A DNA stretch of 41,178 nt from Candidatus Omnitrophota bacterium. Lineage in GTDB: Bacteria; Omnitrophota; Gorgyraeia; Gorgyraeales; Gorgyraeaceae. A program made the position numbers and the translations under genes. The notes below the pieces were generated by a model. It saw nothing but the letters and a program-made list of their open reading frames with translations, was not told the origin of the DNA and did not search any database. The stretch covers positions 1-41,178 of the forward strand of contig JAHJGB010000124.1 in assembly GCA_018824725.1 (NCBI GenBank), read 5' to 3'. Below are positions 3,196-8,453 of this stretch, one piece after another. Position 1 is the stretch's first letter; every line of letters begins with the position of its first letter.

Positions 3196-4319
3196 AAAAT
3201 AAATCCGGTGGCATAGAAAATCTGATACGTAAAATGCTCAAGAAGCACTCCTCCCCTCTTATGCTTATACAGGAGGAGGCGCTTGAGAAACAATTCAGGG
3301 CTTTCCTCAAAGCCCTGCCTGAAGTCATGCCTTACTACGCGATAAAGGCAAATCCGTATCCGGGAATCATTAAAAAGTTCATTGAATTAGGCGCTGGTTT
3401 TGACGTGGCGAGCGCCAACGAGATGAATACTGTTCTGGAACTCGGCGCAAATCCTGACAAAATAATCTTCGCTAACACTATAAAGTCCCATGAAGATATG
3501 AGATCCGCTTGCAAGAAAAAAGTAAAGCTCATGACCTTTGACAATGAGCCGGAATTATACAAAATAGCGAAAGCCTGCCCTGGCGCAAAAGTCATTATAA
3601 GGATCAAAGTGGCAAATATCGGCAGTATCGTAGAGCTCTCTCTGAAATTCGGGGCGGATCCGGAGCAATCGATATCCCTCCTCAAAAAAGCAAGGTCGCT
3701 GGGACTAAAACCCGTGGGCGTGAGCTTCCATGTGGGATCGCAATGCACCAATGCTGAAAATTATTTACAGGCCCTAGAGGTGTCTAGTGTGATATTCAAC
3801 GAAGCAAAACAATCAGGGATATTCTTAAATATACTGGATATAGGCGGCGGATTCCCTATAAAACATTTTGACGCTGACAGCCACCTTACATTTGAGCGCA
3901 TGGCAAACCCGATAAGGAAAAAATTACAGAGGCTTTTTGATAAAAACGTAAAGTTCATCGCTGAGCCCGGCAGATTTTTTGCAGGCCCTTCAGGAATATT
4001 GATAACGCAGGTGATAGGCAGGGCTTTCAGGAATAATAAAAACTATTATTATTTAAATGACGGCCTGTACGGCGATTTTTCAGGTATAGTGTTTGACCAC
4101 TGCAAATATGAATTCAAGACTTTAAACCGCGGGCAAAGGTTCCTGAGCACCCTGGCAGGACCTACGTGCGATTCATTTGATACGATTTCCTTAAGCGAAG
4201 ATCTTCCTGAGCTGGATGTGGGTAATGTGGTCTATGTGAAAAATATAGGCGCCTATTCATGCGCAAGCGCTGTGCCGAACTTCAACGGTTTTAAACCCGC
4301 AAAGATCGTGATGTGCTAG
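3192..4319 (+). CDS. PLP-dependent ornithine/lysine-type decarboxylase (fold III)
   Basis: A 375-aa alanine-racemase-fold (Orn/DAP/Arg decarboxylase group 2) enzyme. Visible landmarks are the PLP lysine in YYAIKANP (about residue 52), HVGSQC, the glycine-rich phosphate loop DIGGGFP, AEPGRFF, and the C-terminal active-site block GPTCDSFDTI, whose Cys and Asp come from the partner subunit in known dimers. The length fits ornithine or ornithine/lysine decarboxylase better than the longer diaminopimelate or biosynthetic arginine enzymes. Coupling to homospermidine synthase by a 4-bp overlap argues for putrescine production from ornithine; lysine decarboxylation to cadaverine remains possible. The 3' end overlaps the convergent radical-SAM gene by 29 bp. 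Confidence 0.85.
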   Translation: MKNKSGGIENLIRKMLKKHSSPLMLIQEEALEKQFRAFLKALPEVMPYYAIKANPYPGIIKKFIELGAGFDVASANEMNTVLELGANPDKIIFANTIKSHEDMRSACKKKVKLMTFDNEPELYKIAKACPGAKVIIRIKVANIGSIVELSLKFGADPEQSISLLKKARSLGLKPVGVSFHVGSQCTNAENYLQALEVSSVIFNEAKQSGIFLNILDIGGGFPIKHFDADSHLTFERMANPIRKKLQRLFDKNVKFIAEPGRFFAGPSGILITQVIGRAFRNNKNYYYLNDGLYGDFSGIVFDHCKYEFKTLNRGQRFLSTLAGPTCDSFDTISLSEDLPELDVGNVVYVKNIGAYSCASAVPNFNGFKPAKIVMC

Positions 4320-6063
4320 CTTCAAAAAATAAAATACTTCCTGCGTCGTAAAGAGGCCCATCGTATAATTCTACTATTTTCTTTCCCCTCTTCTTTATAA
4401 AATCTCTTATCGCGCAGCCGTCAGGATGATTTTTTAACGAGCCTATAAAAAATACCCTGTCTTTATGAACTCCTGATGCGCCGCCTATAAAACCAGTGCC
4501 GTAACCAGGTAGTTTTATATTTCCCGGCTTTACAAGCAAGGCATTTTTGCCCCAGATATCCTTTATGGATTTATCAGATGTAATAATACTCTTATCGTCC
4601 ACAGGCGCAATAGAACATTTCGCATATCCCTGTTTTACTTTTATAAATTTTACGTTTAGATTTTCTATATGCTTTTCGATTTTACCGTCATAGCGGATTA
4701 TGTATTTTCCGACACTGCACGCGTCGTAAATAATGTCTCCCGGATAGGCGGAAGATTTAATGACTTCGCCTTTAATACACTCATAGCCGTTATCCCTTAA
4801 AAGCCCGGCTATTTTTTCTAAATACGGTTCGTATATAACTTTTTTAGCATAAGAAAATAACATCATATCTGAGTGGCCTTTGACAGGCCCGGCCAGTTTT
4901 GGATGTAAAGGCACCTCTCTGACATAATAACCCATCTGCTTTAGTCTAAGTTTTGCTTCGGCCGGGATTCTAGGGTCAATAATGGCTATAACTTTTCTTA
5001 AATCTTTTATTTTAAAAATTTTAGACTCCCGTAATGAAATTTTAGCGCTATAAATTTTTTCCAAATATCTCTTCTCTTCTCCTTTATGCCCAGAGATGAA
5101 GCTGAAAAACTTTTTCGGGCCGTGGATTTCTATTAACCTGCGGTTTGGGATTTTTTTGGGGCCTAAAACACTTATTATTCTATTGCGCATTTGTCTGGCA
5201 CGCGCCATTTCCCCAAAGCTCACGTGATACGGCCCTGCCAGAATCGCAGCTTTTGAATTTAAATCTTCTGACGGGTGAAGGCCTATGCGGATTACTTTTA
5301 CGCCGGCTTTTTCAAAGATATCGCAAACTATAGCTGACCATTCTATTGCATCTTCGATCGAAAGCGGCTTGTATTTGCCATGTTTAAATAAATCCCCGAG
5401 CCCTGTGCCTTTTAAAACAATCGCAGGATATATGCGGCTTGTTTTTGGTTTTAACTTTACCAGCTCCAAAGCTGTCTTTATTGATTTCAGAAGCGTATCT
5501 CCGGGCAAGCCCAGCATCACCTGGATGCCTAAATCAAGGCCTGATTTTTTTATGATGCGGCTTGCGTTTTTAATCGTACTGAAATTCATGGCCCTATTAC
5601 ATTTCTTCAAAACCTCTTTATCAAGCGACTGTACGCCAAGCTCCACCAGGCATCCGCCCATTTTCTTAAACAGCTTCATTGATTTTTCAGTAACAGCCTC
5701 AGGATGCGTGGACATGCGGATCCCGGCTATTTTTTTATACATTCGCCCCGATTGCAATCGGGGCTCAGTATTCCGCCTAAGGAACCCCGGGCTTAAGCCC
5801 GGGTGGGCTCCATTTTCCACATAAGGGAAAACTGTTTCGAGGTACTTTTGCTGCAGCGCTTCAGGCAAAAGCGTAAACGTGCCGCCGAAAAAGGCAAGCT
5901 CCACCCTTTCGCGTCTTGGGATTGTTTTTAAATTTCTATCTATGACGGCTTTAATGTCTTTTTCTGAAGGGATGTTTACTGCGCCTGATATTTTATGCTG
6001 GTCGCAGTAAATGCACCTGTACGGACAGCCTGCGTGCGGGATAAATATGGGTATGATTTTCAC
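4291..6063 (-). CDS. Radical SAM protein (Elp3-like) fused to a DUF6873/GME-fold-like C-terminal domain
   Basis: The 590-aa protein starts at a GTG, 3 nt after the upstream gene. Residues about 1-330 are a radical-SAM domain with the cluster motif CPYRCIYC (Cys13, 17, 20), FFGGTF and GIQVMLGLPGD, like the catalytic half of Elp3-type proteins but without the acetyltransferase domain. The remainder (KVIAIIDPRIPAEAKLRL onwards) resembles the DUF6873 family of the guanidino-modifying-enzyme fold, with VKGHSDMM, KCSIAPVDD and a terminal DAGSILFF. Residues 84-108 are encoded by a palindromic element that interrupts the radical-SAM domain between YVE and YKKIAGIRMST. Substrate unknown. The C-terminal family assignment is from memory and less sure than the N-terminal one. 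Confidence 0.75.
   Translation of the reverse strand: MKIIPIFIPHAGCPYRCIYCDQHKISGAVNIPSEKDIKAVIDRNLKTIPRRERVELAFFGGTFTLLPEALQQKYLETVFPYVENGAHPGLSPGFLRRNTEPRLQSGRMYKKIAGIRMSTHPEAVTEKSMKLFKKMGGCLVELGVQSLDKEVLKKCNRAMNFSTIKNASRIIKKSGLDLGIQVMLGLPGDTLLKSIKTALELVKLKPKTSRIYPAIVLKGTGLGDLFKHGKYKPLSIEDAIEWSAIVCDIFEKAGVKVIRIGLHPSEDLNSKAAILAGPYHVSFGEMARARQMRNRIISVLGPKKIPNRRLIEIHGPKKFFSFISGHKGEEKRYLEKIYSAKISLRESKIFKIKDLRKVIAIIDPRIPAEAKLRLKQMGYYVREVPLHPKLAGPVKGHSDMMLFSYAKKVIYEPYLEKIAGLLRDNGYECIKGEVIKSSAYPGDIIYDACSVGKYIIRYDGKIEKHIENLNVKFIKVKQGYAKCSIAPVDDKSIITSDKSIKDIWGKNALLVKPGNIKLPGYGTGFIGGASGVHKDRVFFIGSLKNHPDGCAIRDFIKKRGKKIVELYDGPLYDAGSILFFEASTSRSLRV
5740..5814 (-). repeat. In-frame composite palindromic insertion element, copy A
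   Basis: 75 nt (25 codons) inside the radical-SAM gene. It holds a perfect 20-nt palindrome (GCCCCGATTGCAATCGGGGC, 5745-5764) and a perfect 18-nt palindrome (CCCGGGCTTAAGCCCGGG, 5786-5803), joined by GCTCAGTATTCCG. The joining segment, the second palindrome, and the ends (ATACATTCGC and CTCCATT) recur at 7612-7713 inside dus. It replaces a short loop in the protein and is open in frame. Confidence 0.85.
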
Positions 6064-6066
6064 TTA

Positions 6067-6318
6067 TTACTTGTGGAATAGGACTGTAAAAACCATTACA
6101 AGCGTGAAGAAGAAAAAGTTTACATAGGTAAAAGTCCTATATACTATGTCAGGGCTTTGTATGCCCGTAGGAAACATTGCCAGGAAACAAACCCACACGC
6201 CTATTGCCCAGTATAGGCTCAGGTCCTTGGACGAGCGGCGCTTTATAATCCTAACTATAAGCGGGATGTTCCAGAGCGGGAGTATTATGCTGGCGATTAA
6301 AGCTATCTTAGTTAACAT
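6067..6318 (-). CDS. Small PQ-loop (SemiSWEET-like) membrane protein
   Basis: An 83-aa protein with three hydrophobic segments (about residues 3-22, 37-52 and 60-81). The first helix ends in WNIPLIVRIIKRRSSKDLSL, the pattern of PQ-loop/SemiSWEET half-transporters, where a Pro in helix 1 is followed by a basic loop and SxxxLSL. Known SemiSWEETs are about 85-95 aa, work as dimers and move small sugars, so the length fits. It lies between fba and the radical-SAM gene in a minus-strand run, 3 nt from the latter. Transport of a sugar, or even of any solute, is inference; a plain hypothetical membrane protein is the alternative. Confidence 0.55.
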   Translation of the reverse strand: MLTKIALIASIILPLWNIPLIVRIIKRRSSKDLSLYWAIGVWVCFLAMFPTGIQSPDIVYRTFTYVNFFFFTLVMVFTVLFHK

Positions 6319-6323
6319 ATATT

Positions 6324-6361
6324 AAGGGGACACATCTCCGATTGGCTCTAGAACCGTCCCT
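6324..6361. repeat. Degenerate REP-like sequence
   Basis: AGGGGACA near one end and GTCCCT at the other flank about 25 nt of partly complementary sequence with CTAGAACC inside. It fills the whole spacer between fba and the PQ-loop gene and resembles the GGGGAC...GTCCCC sequence at 21263. The pairing is imperfect, so this call is weak. Confidence 0.4.
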
Positions 6362-6365
6362 ATCT

Positions 6366-7337
6366 TTATGCCTTGCCTGCGGAGCCCAGGACTTGCTCGT
6401 TTTTATGCTTATACATCTTTATAAGCTCGTCTCTTGCAGGGCCCAGGTATTTACGCGGGTCGAATTCTTTCGGGCTAGTCGCAAAAACTTCTCGTATCTT
6501 GGCTGTCATTGCGAGGCGGCCGTCTGAATCAATATTTATTTTACAGACAGCTGAAGCGGTGGCTTTTCTCAGCTGTTCTTCAGGAACGCCCGCTGTATTT
6601 TCAAGCTTTCCCCCGTATTTATTGATAAGGTCCACGTATTCTTTTGTGACAGAGCTTGCCCCGTGTAAAACTATGGGAAAACCCGGTATTCTTTTTTCAA
6701 CTTCTTCCAATATATCAAATCTCAGGGGCGGAACGCTTTCTCCGGGTTTTAATTTAAATTTATACGCGCCGTGGGAAGTGCCTATGGAGATCGCGAGGCT
6801 GTCAACGCCTGTCTTTTTTACAAAATCTTCCACTTCTTCAGGATGGGTGTAATGGCTAGCTTCGTGGCTTACCTCATCCTCTATCCCTGCCAGGACTCCG
6901 AGCTCGCCTTCTACTGTAACGTCGTATTTATGTGCATATTCGACTACTTTTTTAGTAAGGGCTGCATTGTCTTCGTATTTATGCGCTGAGCCGTCTATCA
7001 TGACAGAAGAAAATCCTGACTCTATGCAGGAAACGCAGAGTTCATAAGTATCGCCGTGGTCCAGGTGAAACGCCACAGGGATATTGGAACTTGCTGCTTT
7101 TATTATTTCCATTGAGCCCATTGCCATGTGCCTCAATAAAATCTGGTTTGCGTATTTTCTGGCGCCTGAAGAAACCTGTAAAATTACAGGAGACTTTGTT
7201 TCTATACATGCGGTGATTATTGCCTGGAGCTGTTCCATGTTATTAAAATTATAGGCTGGGATAGCGTATTTGCCCGCCATTGCCTTTTTAAACATATCTT
7301 TTGTATTAACCAGTCCTAATTCTTTGTAAGAATGCAT
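6366..7337 (-). CDS. fba: Class II fructose-bisphosphate aldolase
   Basis: A 323-aa class II (zinc) aldolase that cleaves fructose 1,6-bisphosphate to DHAP and glyceraldehyde 3-phosphate in glycolysis and runs in reverse in gluconeogenesis. The protein begins with the family-typical NTKDMFKKAMAGKYAIPAYNFNN. The metal and catalytic block HLDHGDT lies at residues 91-97, GELGVLAG and EEVEDF follow, and the later phosphate-binding segments SHGAYK, VLHGASSV and NIDSD are all present. Length is normal for the class IIA/IIB group. The ATG has a strong GGAGG site. A near-consensus promoter lies immediately upstream, partly inside the 3' end of dus, so fba can be expressed independently of dus. Confidence 0.93.
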   Translation of the reverse strand: MHSYKELGLVNTKDMFKKAMAGKYAIPAYNFNNMEQLQAIITACIETKSPVILQVSSGARKYANQILLRHMAMGSMEIIKAASSNIPVAFHLDHGDTYELCVSCIESGFSSVMIDGSAHKYEDNAALTKKVVEYAHKYDVTVEGELGVLAGIEDEVSHEASHYTHPEEVEDFVKKTGVDSLAISIGTSHGAYKFKLKPGESVPPLRFDILEEVEKRIPGFPIVLHGASSVTKEYVDLINKYGGKLENTAGVPEEQLRKATASAVCKINIDSDGRLAMTAKIREVFATSPKEFDPRKYLGPARDELIKMYKHKNEQVLGSAGKA

Positions 7338-7365: not shown

Positions 7366-7394
7366 ATTATACCATTATATTAAACGTTGGTCAA
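7366..7394 (-). promoter_or_regulatory. Near-consensus promoter for fba
   Basis: Minus strand: TTGACC, a 17-nt spacer, then a perfect TATAAT about 30 nt before the fba ATG. The -35 box lies inside the last codons of dus (stop at 7380). This is the best-matching promoter in the window. Confidence 0.7.
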
Positions 7395-8453
7395 TTTTCT
7401 AAAGGACTGGATAATCTCCAGCATGCCTTCTTTTGTCTTTGTGCGGAAAGCCTTTTCCCTGAAAGACCTGACGCTGGGGATGCCTTTTGTGTACCATGCG
7501 AAAAATTTATGAAATCTCCTGATGCCATGAAGGGCGTCATAGAAATCAATATAGGAATTCATGTGCTCTATCATAACATCAGCTATTTCATCTATACTAG
7601 GTTTTTTGATACATTCGCGGCCACCTATCCACGGCCTTAAGGCCGTGGATAGGTAATGACCGCTCAGTATTCCGTCCAAGGGATCCCGGGTTTTAGCCCG
7701 TGTGGACTCCATTATCTTTTTATTTTTTAAGAATGTCTTTATCTGCTCGAAGATCCAGGGGTTCCCCAGCGCCCCCCTGGCCACAAGTAAGCCGTCGCAT
7801 CCTGTTTCATCCAGCATTTTTTTACCAAGCTCGGGACTAAGCACATCCCCGCTTCCTATAACAGGGATGTCCAGGGCCTTTTTTACATCTTTTATGGCGT
7901 CATAATCCACTTCTCCGCTGTAGCCCTGCTCCCTGTTTCTTCCGTGGATAAATAAAGCACTTATGCCTGCGTCCTGGCTCGCAAGAGCTGAATCTTTTGC
8001 GTTTATAGAATCCCTGTCCCAGCCTGTGCGGATTTTTACAGTGACAGGCTTGGCGGAATTTTTGACAATAATCTTTAATAACTTATTCAGCTTTTTAGGA
8101 TCTTTTAATAATGCAGCGCCTTCGCCGCGGCGCGCAACCTTTTTCACAGGGCAGGCTGCGTTAAAATCCAGGACATCGTACTCGTAAGAACCGAGTACGT
8201 CTAATGCCCTGGATATAAATTCTTCTTCGCAGCCTATGATCTGTATGCCGAGCGGCCTGTCCTTAGGGCTCGTGGAAAGCATTTTCTTCGTTTTACGCAT
8301 CTTATAGCTCAGGGACCTTACATTAATCATTTCTATAAAGCCGAGCTCGCAGCCAAACCTGCGGTTTAAGAGCCTGAAAGGCAGATCACTTACCCCTGCC
8401 ATAGGCGCCAGGATGAGATTTGACTTTAATTTTAAACTTCCGATTTTCAGCAT
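7380..8453 (-). CDS. dus: tRNA-dihydrouridine synthase
   Basis: A 357-aa FMN-dependent Dus enzyme that reduces specific uridines in tRNA. The start NLILAPMAGVSDLPFR, the catalytic-loop segment DFNAACPVKKVARRGEGAALL (active-site Cys in NAACP), the phosphate/FMN segments KIRTGWD, LFIHGR and GSGDV, and DGLLVARGALGNPWIF are all family hallmarks, closest to DusB. Typical DusB proteins are about 320 aa; the excess is explained by residues about 248-281, encoded by a palindromic insertion between FLKNKKI and KKPSIDEI. The segment falls at the junction of the barrel and the helical tRNA-binding domain, where an extra loop might be tolerated. The leader carries a strong hairpin (8479-8526). Confidence 0.92.
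   Translation of the reverse strand: MLKIGSLKLKSNLILAPMAGVSDLPFRLLNRRFGCELGFIEMINVRSLSYKMRKTKKMLSTSPKDRPLGIQIIGCEEEFISRALDVLGSYEYDVLDFNAACPVKKVARRGEGAALLKDPKKLNKLLKIIVKNSAKPVTVKIRTGWDRDSINAKDSALASQDAGISALFIHGRNREQGYSGEVDYDAIKDVKKALDIPVIGSGDVLSPELGKKMLDETGCDGLLVARGALGNPWIFEQIKTFLKNKKIMESTRAKTRDPLDGILSGHYLSTALRPWIGGRECIKKPSIDEIADVMIEHMNSYIDFYDALHGIRRFHKFFAWYTKGIPSVRSFREKAFRTKTKEGMLEIIQSFRKLTNV
7612..7713 (-). repeat. In-frame composite palindromic insertion element, copy B
   Basis: 102 nt (34 codons) inside dus. It contains a perfect 32-nt palindrome at 7623-7654 (core CGGCCTTAAGGCCG) and a second imperfect one around CCCGGGTTTTAGCCCG. It shares with copy A the left end ATACATTCGC, the middle GCTCAGTATTCCG and the right end GGRCTCCATT. 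The first palindrome differs completely between copies. The element is read in a different frame here than in copy A, and both frames are open. Confidence 0.85.

Follow-up and report, generated by a model that had tools for sequence, protein, structure and literature searches.

A hairpin element inserted at GAAAAT^AAA, within and outside protein genes, in genomes of Omnitrophota

Two in-gene copies at the locus

The window analysed here, the whole stretch of 41,178 nucleotides from a Candidatus Omnitrophota bacterium (contig JAHJGB010000124.1), carries on its minus strand a gene for an Elp3-like radical-SAM protein of 590 amino acids (4291-6063), with Radical_SAM_C and DUF6873 domains. The frame of this gene stays open through a 75-nt insert of 25 codons, GGAGCC...GCGAATGTAT (5737-5811, minus strand), which is referred to as copy A and is recognised both by a covariance-model (CM) match and by the lack of a counterpart in aligned relatives. 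Stem A of the insert (5775-5808, minus strand) has outer pairs formed by GCCCA (5808-5804) with TAGGC (5779-5775) around an inner palindrome, CCCGGGCTTAAGCCCGGG (5803-5786), and stem B (5737-5771, minus strand) pairs ATAC (5771-5768) with the terminal GTAT (5740-5737), enclosing the palindrome GCCCCGATTGCAATCGGGGC (5764-5745). On the same strand the insert is flanked by the two halves of its target, GAAAAT on the left (5812-5817), defined by the profile of 45 copies and by empty sites in congeners, and AAA on the right (5734-5736), defined by that profile.

When positions 5300-6700 are read directly for palindromes, copy A yields two perfect ones, at 5745-5764 (20 bp) and 5786-5803 (18 bp), linked by a 21-nt joint, TCAGTATTCCGCCTAAGGAAC. 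The palindromes had been described correctly in the initial annotation, but the joint given there, GCTCAGTATTCCG, starts inside the first palindrome and covers part of the joint, and what had been seen as two palindromes plus a linker is really two compound stem-loops, each preceded by GGA.

When 59 relatives are searched, the alignment of the radical-SAM protein splits into residues 1-84 and 110-582, and in congeners the aligned halves are directly adjacent or one codon apart. A codon alignment with 10 congeners and 5 other members of the family, all without the insert residues, shows that the window copy alone has gained 75 nt, located between GTG-GAA-AAT and AAA-AAA-ATA, in agreement with the exactly 25 added codons proposed at the outset; no distant homologue with the same residues was seen. 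Loci L100 and L103, from two further genera of the family, have an even shorter loop, and one congener (G007) gave no orthologous match to the gene. The register of copy A is ambiguous by 3 nt: the interval first proposed, 5740-5814 (residues 84-108), has the correct length, but 5737-5811 (GGAGCC...GTAT, residues 85-109) fits better, since congeners have AAT or another codon directly before AAA-AAA-ATA and other copies break at AAAAT^A. In an AlphaFold model of the protein (mean pLDDT 76) residues 85-109 have a pLDDT below 50 and lie in an alpha-to-beta loop, between a helix (68-83) and a strand (112-119). The alpha-to-beta loops of such barrels face away from the active site, and the insert is predicted to form a flexible loop on the barrel face away from the iron-sulfur cluster.

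The copy in dus that the initial annotation had pointed to is real. Copy B (element 7609-7713, insert 7609-7710, minus strand) adds 102 nt, or 34 codons, with a class c stem B, to dusB (7380-8453, minus strand), which encodes tRNA dihydrouridine synthase B (TIGR00737 over cut-off) and is the sole close copy of its segment in the genome. Alignment to 1vhn puts the insert where the barrel gives way to the C-terminal helical domain. A structure model of Dus built from 5 sequences has a mean pLDDT of 47, with coil at the insert, and was otherwise unused.

Copies, anatomy, target and movement

The CM finds 53 matches in the 1.66 Mb genome (a MAG of 181 contigs, 93% complete), from which 47 distinct copies were collected and 45 were delimited and analysed in full. 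These 45 are 66-156 nt long; 25 lie within ORFs, where they add 20-40 amino acids, and 20 lie outside. With up to 3 mismatches allowed, the core GGGCGGAATACTGAGC matches the genome 58 times and the reversed control pattern 9 times, and the copy number is far above chance; the further copies that the initial annotation had anticipated amount to about 50.

The element is laid out as AAAAT-GGA-(stem A)-GGA-(stem B)-A. Stem A consists of GCCCA...TGGGC enclosing an inner CCCGGGC hairpin, and stem B of ATAC-TGA-GC...GC-GAAT-GTAT enclosing a variable hairpin, which falls into at least three sequence classes, the main three being CCCGAT..ATCGGG, CCGCCATT..GTGGCGG, and GGCCATT..TGTGGCC with a further inner hairpin. 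The ends, GGAG... and ...GTAT, are not inverted repeats of each other, and the near-repeat AATG occurs at both. Across 39 copies 93.9% of cells in helices 1-4 are paired, and there are 39 double-change cells against 17.6 after shuffling, with slid controls lower, the double changes coming mostly from the swap of stem B class (17 copies at each of two pairs). An alternative fold of stem A, GGAGCC with GGTTCC, gave many A-C mismatches, and GCCCA/TGGGC was chosen.

Other repeats accompany some copies. Stem A of two in-gene copies (L022 1447-1545; L034 523-627) contains, at an identical position, a palindromic block of 21 nt (CCTGCCT..CCGGCAGGCAGG) that adds exactly 7 codons, and a further repeat (CCCTCGACTTCGCTCGGGATG...GGTGAGCTTGTCGAACC) is nested within or beside element copies (L035 1465-1620; L068 around 1500-1660).

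What did the sites look like before insertion? Host segments, 16 in all and stripped of the insert, were combined into a chimeric query for a search of 11 congeners; the 72 stretches retrieved supply about 16 empty sites at codon resolution. The sequence before insertion can be read from codon alignments for HolB, MurF, UvrA sites a and b, NadE, ValS, TrxB and DusB, as well as for a DHODB-like protein, DUF3786, a QueE-like protein, a CAAX protease and a polysaccharide deacetylase; the empty sites of TilS and ValS are seen in part, and that of MurB rests on unbroken congener alignments. For instance, the empty site reads AAGAAAATAGAC in HolB, AGGAAAATAAAG in MurF, AAGGAAAATAAGCC in TrxB and AAGGAAAATAACAAG in QueE. 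Empty sites are AAAAT, or close to it, followed by A, and GGAGCC...GCGAATGTAT has been inserted between, repeatedly and with exact junctions. The flank profile of the 45 copies is G-A-A-A-A-T ^ A-A-A, in which the left G is found in 34/45, the left A positions in 36-44/45 and the T in 45/45, with A at the three right positions in 39/45, 41/45 and 35/45. There is no duplication longer than 2 bp at GAAAAT^AAA, and a duplication of 2 bp would be indistinguishable from none because AT is common to the element ends and the target.

Within the window 67 of the 70 AAAATAA sites are in coding DNA, against 25 of the 45 surviving copies, a difference that fits the loss of damaging insertions. Copies outside ORFs lie between genes or at their ends, in many cases where the TAA of the target had been a stop codon. 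A bias between leading and lagging strands was considered, given that the element strand is the G-rich strand in 34/45 loci (p=8e-4), but the skew follows gene direction and the bias is thus inseparable from the location of the A-rich target mostly on coding strands. In several genes for secreted proteins (L023, L051, L066, L011 and L032) the insertion lies 3-9 codons past the start and immediately ahead of the hydrophobic part of the signal peptide, where ATG-TAT-AAA, contributed by the element, could provide a new start.

With no gene of its own and two compound hairpins, the element would depend on an enzyme supplied in trans. The leading guess, a tentative one, is that it may have moved as single-stranded DNA through an HUH-type enzyme, as hinted at by the two subterminal hairpins each following GGA, the absence of long terminal inverted repeats, the conserved target flank and the complementarity of GTAT to ATAC; this anatomy fits that described for IS200/IS605 ends (PMC6006769). 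The ATAC/GTAT complementarity belongs to the right end, and the left end has no equivalent tetranucleotide pairing, the GGA before stem A showing no obvious pairing with AAAT, unlike an IS608-type guide. A Y1 transposase would be a plausible mover but not a supported one, given that a search of 28 genomes revealed no link between Y1/RAYT transposases and the element by position or distribution.

It is unlikely, although this alternative survives better than those that follow, that the element is of REP type in the strict sense, moved by the genome's own RAYT/Y1 transposases. The GGA(G/A) in front of its hairpins resembles the foot described for REPs, GT[AG]G (PMC6006769), and Y1 genes are present in this genome, four in number, and in 12/12 genomes of the genus. 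However, GGA(G/A) is not the GT[AG]G foot, and the 32 loci around the Y1 genes of the family gave one element match only, at E 2.4. Moreover, Y1 genes are equally present in element-free genera, a genome with 12 element matches (G230, 89% complete) has no Y1 match, and 25/45 copies are intragenic, unlike REPs. The four Y1 genes are RAYT-like (L132-L135), one of them, L135, has a long C-terminal extension, and none is near an element.

Reading frame, host genes and distribution

The 25 ORF-internal copies, 18 in gene orientation and 7 reversed, use five of the six frames. Length is divisible by three in 25/25 of them against 11/20 of the other copies (Fisher p=1.9e-4), frame statistics of this kind being independent only for the approximately 17 sites with homology on both sides, as ORF-internal status is partly defined by an open frame. 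In loci of other genomes the same property holds, by our own count, for 15/15 in-ORF copies and 6/11 others, and in-gene copies of congeners keep the frame too, for example within Mfd (L272), MoaA (L274) and an RNA methyltransferase (L267 and L268), genes named by eye only. Additional nested blocks also preserve it, as in the in-gene copies of NadE (129 nt), a porin (99 nt) and GT2 (105 nt). The frame in use is further reflected in the stem A loop, where the base before AAG gives a stop in one frame or another. This base is T or C in copies read in plus frame 0 (one shifted by an indel), and A, G or C, or the loop is absent, but never T, in plus frame 1, although joint probabilities for such stop avoidance overstate the case because of the partly open-frame-defined ORF-internal status.

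Lengths divisible by three and a loop base that follows the frame used favour translation of the insert, which is very probably read through rather than spliced or bypassed. That it is instead removed after transcription, by self-splicing or excision by a nuclease, or skipped by the ribosome, leaving the protein unchanged, is very improbable. Strong hairpins and the near-repeat AATG at both ends do recall bypass elements, and the hosts include probably essential enzymes. Removal or skipping, however, needs neither lengths divisible by three nor frame-specific absence of stops, both of which hold; 7/25 in-gene copies are reversed, so that a signal at the RNA level could not be the same; and the element has no match in Rfam. 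Precedents for ribosome skipping are the mitochondrial byp elements, which are short hairpins within genes, and the hop of T4 gene 60. Short in-gene hairpins are shared with byp elements, but the frame and stop constraints point here to translation and not to bypass.

The host genes probably include many essential enzymes. DusB, UvrA, ValS, NadE, MurB, MurF, TilS and TrxB score over their NCBIfam cut-offs and HolB falls just below, and no interrupted gene segment, each having been checked, has a second close copy in the genome. UvrA carries two insertion sites, with elements in opposite orientations, and in alignments to solved structures the blocks either side of the first insert meet at residue 210 of chain 9gxk_A.

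Every genome of the genus (12/12) holds the element, with 2-19 CM matches in each of the 11 congeners. There were no CM matches in 6/7 other genera of the family and one weak match in the remaining one (G015), while distant Omnitrophota families have 12 (G230, f3), 9 and 5 (G221 and G201, f46) and 1 (G177, f42). A sample of 384 genomes of the phylum has the core pattern in 12, in agreement with the CM picture, and the exact 20-base core occurs in 16 public stretches, all from Omnitrophota, including the MAGs UBA10183, GWA2_41_15 (Hainich), LacPavin SED5_MAG_41_13 and CG22 43_16. A virus was rejected as carrier, the lone exact core match in IMG/VR lying in a GC-rich gene that has nothing else of the element and being a product of chance.

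There is almost no prospect that the extra residues belong to a loop that was ancestral to these proteins and disappeared from their relatives: nothing was found in favour of this, the same DNA is found in many unrelated proteins, in differing frames and both orientations, and the insert is missing at its site from most or all congeners. An assembly or binning artefact is just as remote, for although the genome is a MAG of 181 contigs, the element recurs inside contigs with orthologous flanking genes, in 12/12 genomes of the genus and in MAGs from different projects, and the ValS site is filled in three species with differing sequences.

These three are G000 (the present genome), G002 and G005, and on the genus tree the site is empty in close relatives of G000 and G005. 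UvrA site a is filled with similar copies in G000 and G009, and the GT2 site is filled in G000 and has a shortened copy in G008. Either precise loss or repeated hits would explain why, at ValS (L200, L201 and L202), UvrA (L181 and L182) and GT2 (L230), non-sister species are filled and closer relatives empty.

In G005, UvrA site a is occupied by another palindromic insert, GATTCCGCAAAAGCTTTTGCGGAATC-AAGCAAAAATAAACGCCAGTCGGCATTTTTGCTTG, which likewise keeps the frame (L306, G005:C1:3514-3565). This second family (GATTCCGCAAAAGCCTTTGCGGAATC-AAGCAAAAATAA.CGCCAGTCGGCATTTTTGCTTG, sometimes then TTGACA) is unrelated to the first. It has relatives in 7/8 genomes searched, with one in frame in G002 (L302, G002:C295) and others intergenic (L299, G000:C180; L296-L301), and in several genomes the first family is nested at a GAAAATA site within copies of the second (L055, L056 and L039 in G000:C153, C161 and C53; L281 in G011:C54). 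A more speculative picture, doubtful as it stands, is that Omnitrophota may harbour several unrelated palindromic families for which protein genes are a routine habitat and which are moved by an undescribed system targeting GAAAAT^AAA, where insertions would tend to be survivable as the target is a stop in one frame and Lys/Asn/Glu in the other two, with ValS, UvrA and GT2 either hit repeatedly or cleared by precise loss.

By far the most credible account is of a miniature, non-autonomous hairpin element of about 60-155 nt with target-specific insertion, whose frame-neutral copies are kept and translated. Insertion has a strong sequence preference for GAAAAT^AAA, with no duplication of host sequence beyond the ambiguous AT; in coding DNA this target encodes Lys/Asn/Glu/Ile stretches, often surface loops. 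Insertions persist if they add a multiple of three bases and introduce no stop in the frame used, and the insert would then be translated as an extra, probably disordered segment. Judging from the host list, enzymes that are single-copy and probably essential (DNA polymerase delta', MurF, valyl-tRNA synthetase and UvrA) seem able to accept 20-40 foreign residues, and the in-gene copies would represent a natural scan of the tolerance of proteins to insertion.

Comparison with known systems

Two long-standing questions, how Rickettsia palindromic elements move and whether gene-invading selfish DNA is peculiar to host-restricted bacteria, become testable by comparison through an independent case that offers a sharp target, many congeners and empty sites known exactly. 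A literature search found no paper on such elements in Omnitrophota.

With IS200/IS605-type non-autonomous elements and the REP/TnpA-REP system the element shares two subterminal hairpins, a conserved flank, the absence of a long TIR and of a long target duplication, and a terminal tetranucleotide with its complement on the 5' side of hairpin B, but it differs in being largely intragenic and in having no linked transposase, no GT[AG]G foot and no clear guide-target pairing on the left. Coxiella QMITEs, enterobacterial RU/ERIC and other bacterial MITEs are likewise non-autonomous with some in-frame insertions (PMC5896051, PMC2229807), although most of them end in inverted repeats and, where this is known, duplicate their target, and conserved housekeeping genes are less usually the site of their in-frame insertions.

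The closest likeness in behaviour is to Rickettsia palindromic elements (RPE), which the initial annotation had rightly named as a precedent. Most examples of such in-frame insertion to date come from Rickettsia and its relatives, but these are not the sole precedent, as in-frame cases are also known in Wolbachia, enterobacterial RU elements and Coxiella QMITEs (PMC2229807, PMC5896051). RPEs are 105-146 bp in length with a 12 bp TIR, and the first report described 19 within genes (as reviewed in PMC2229807); close to half are inserted in ORFs, and one conserved peptide is described (PMC10969869). In common with the RPE families and Wolbachia palindromic repeats, the element is a short hairpin repeat in many copies, within and outside genes, in frame in conserved genes and with no encoded enzyme (PMC2229807, PMC10969869). 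Yet the RPE1 model TIGR01045, the one RPE model searched by name, gave 0 matches in the genome at E<=10, and the element peptides gave 0 NCBIfam matches. The element is thus RPE-like but not filed as an RPE, on account of the lack of RPE1 sequence homology and of terminal inverted repeats. As the initial annotation had supposed, it is an independent case separate from the Rickettsia elements, because it belongs to another phylum, is unrelated in sequence and does not match the RPE1 model. What sets it apart from RPEs is, beyond the different phylum, a pair of separate compound stems in place of a long terminal inverted repeat, the use of five of the six frames rather than one conserved peptide, and a specific target, GAAAAT^AAA, for which the empty sites are known exactly.
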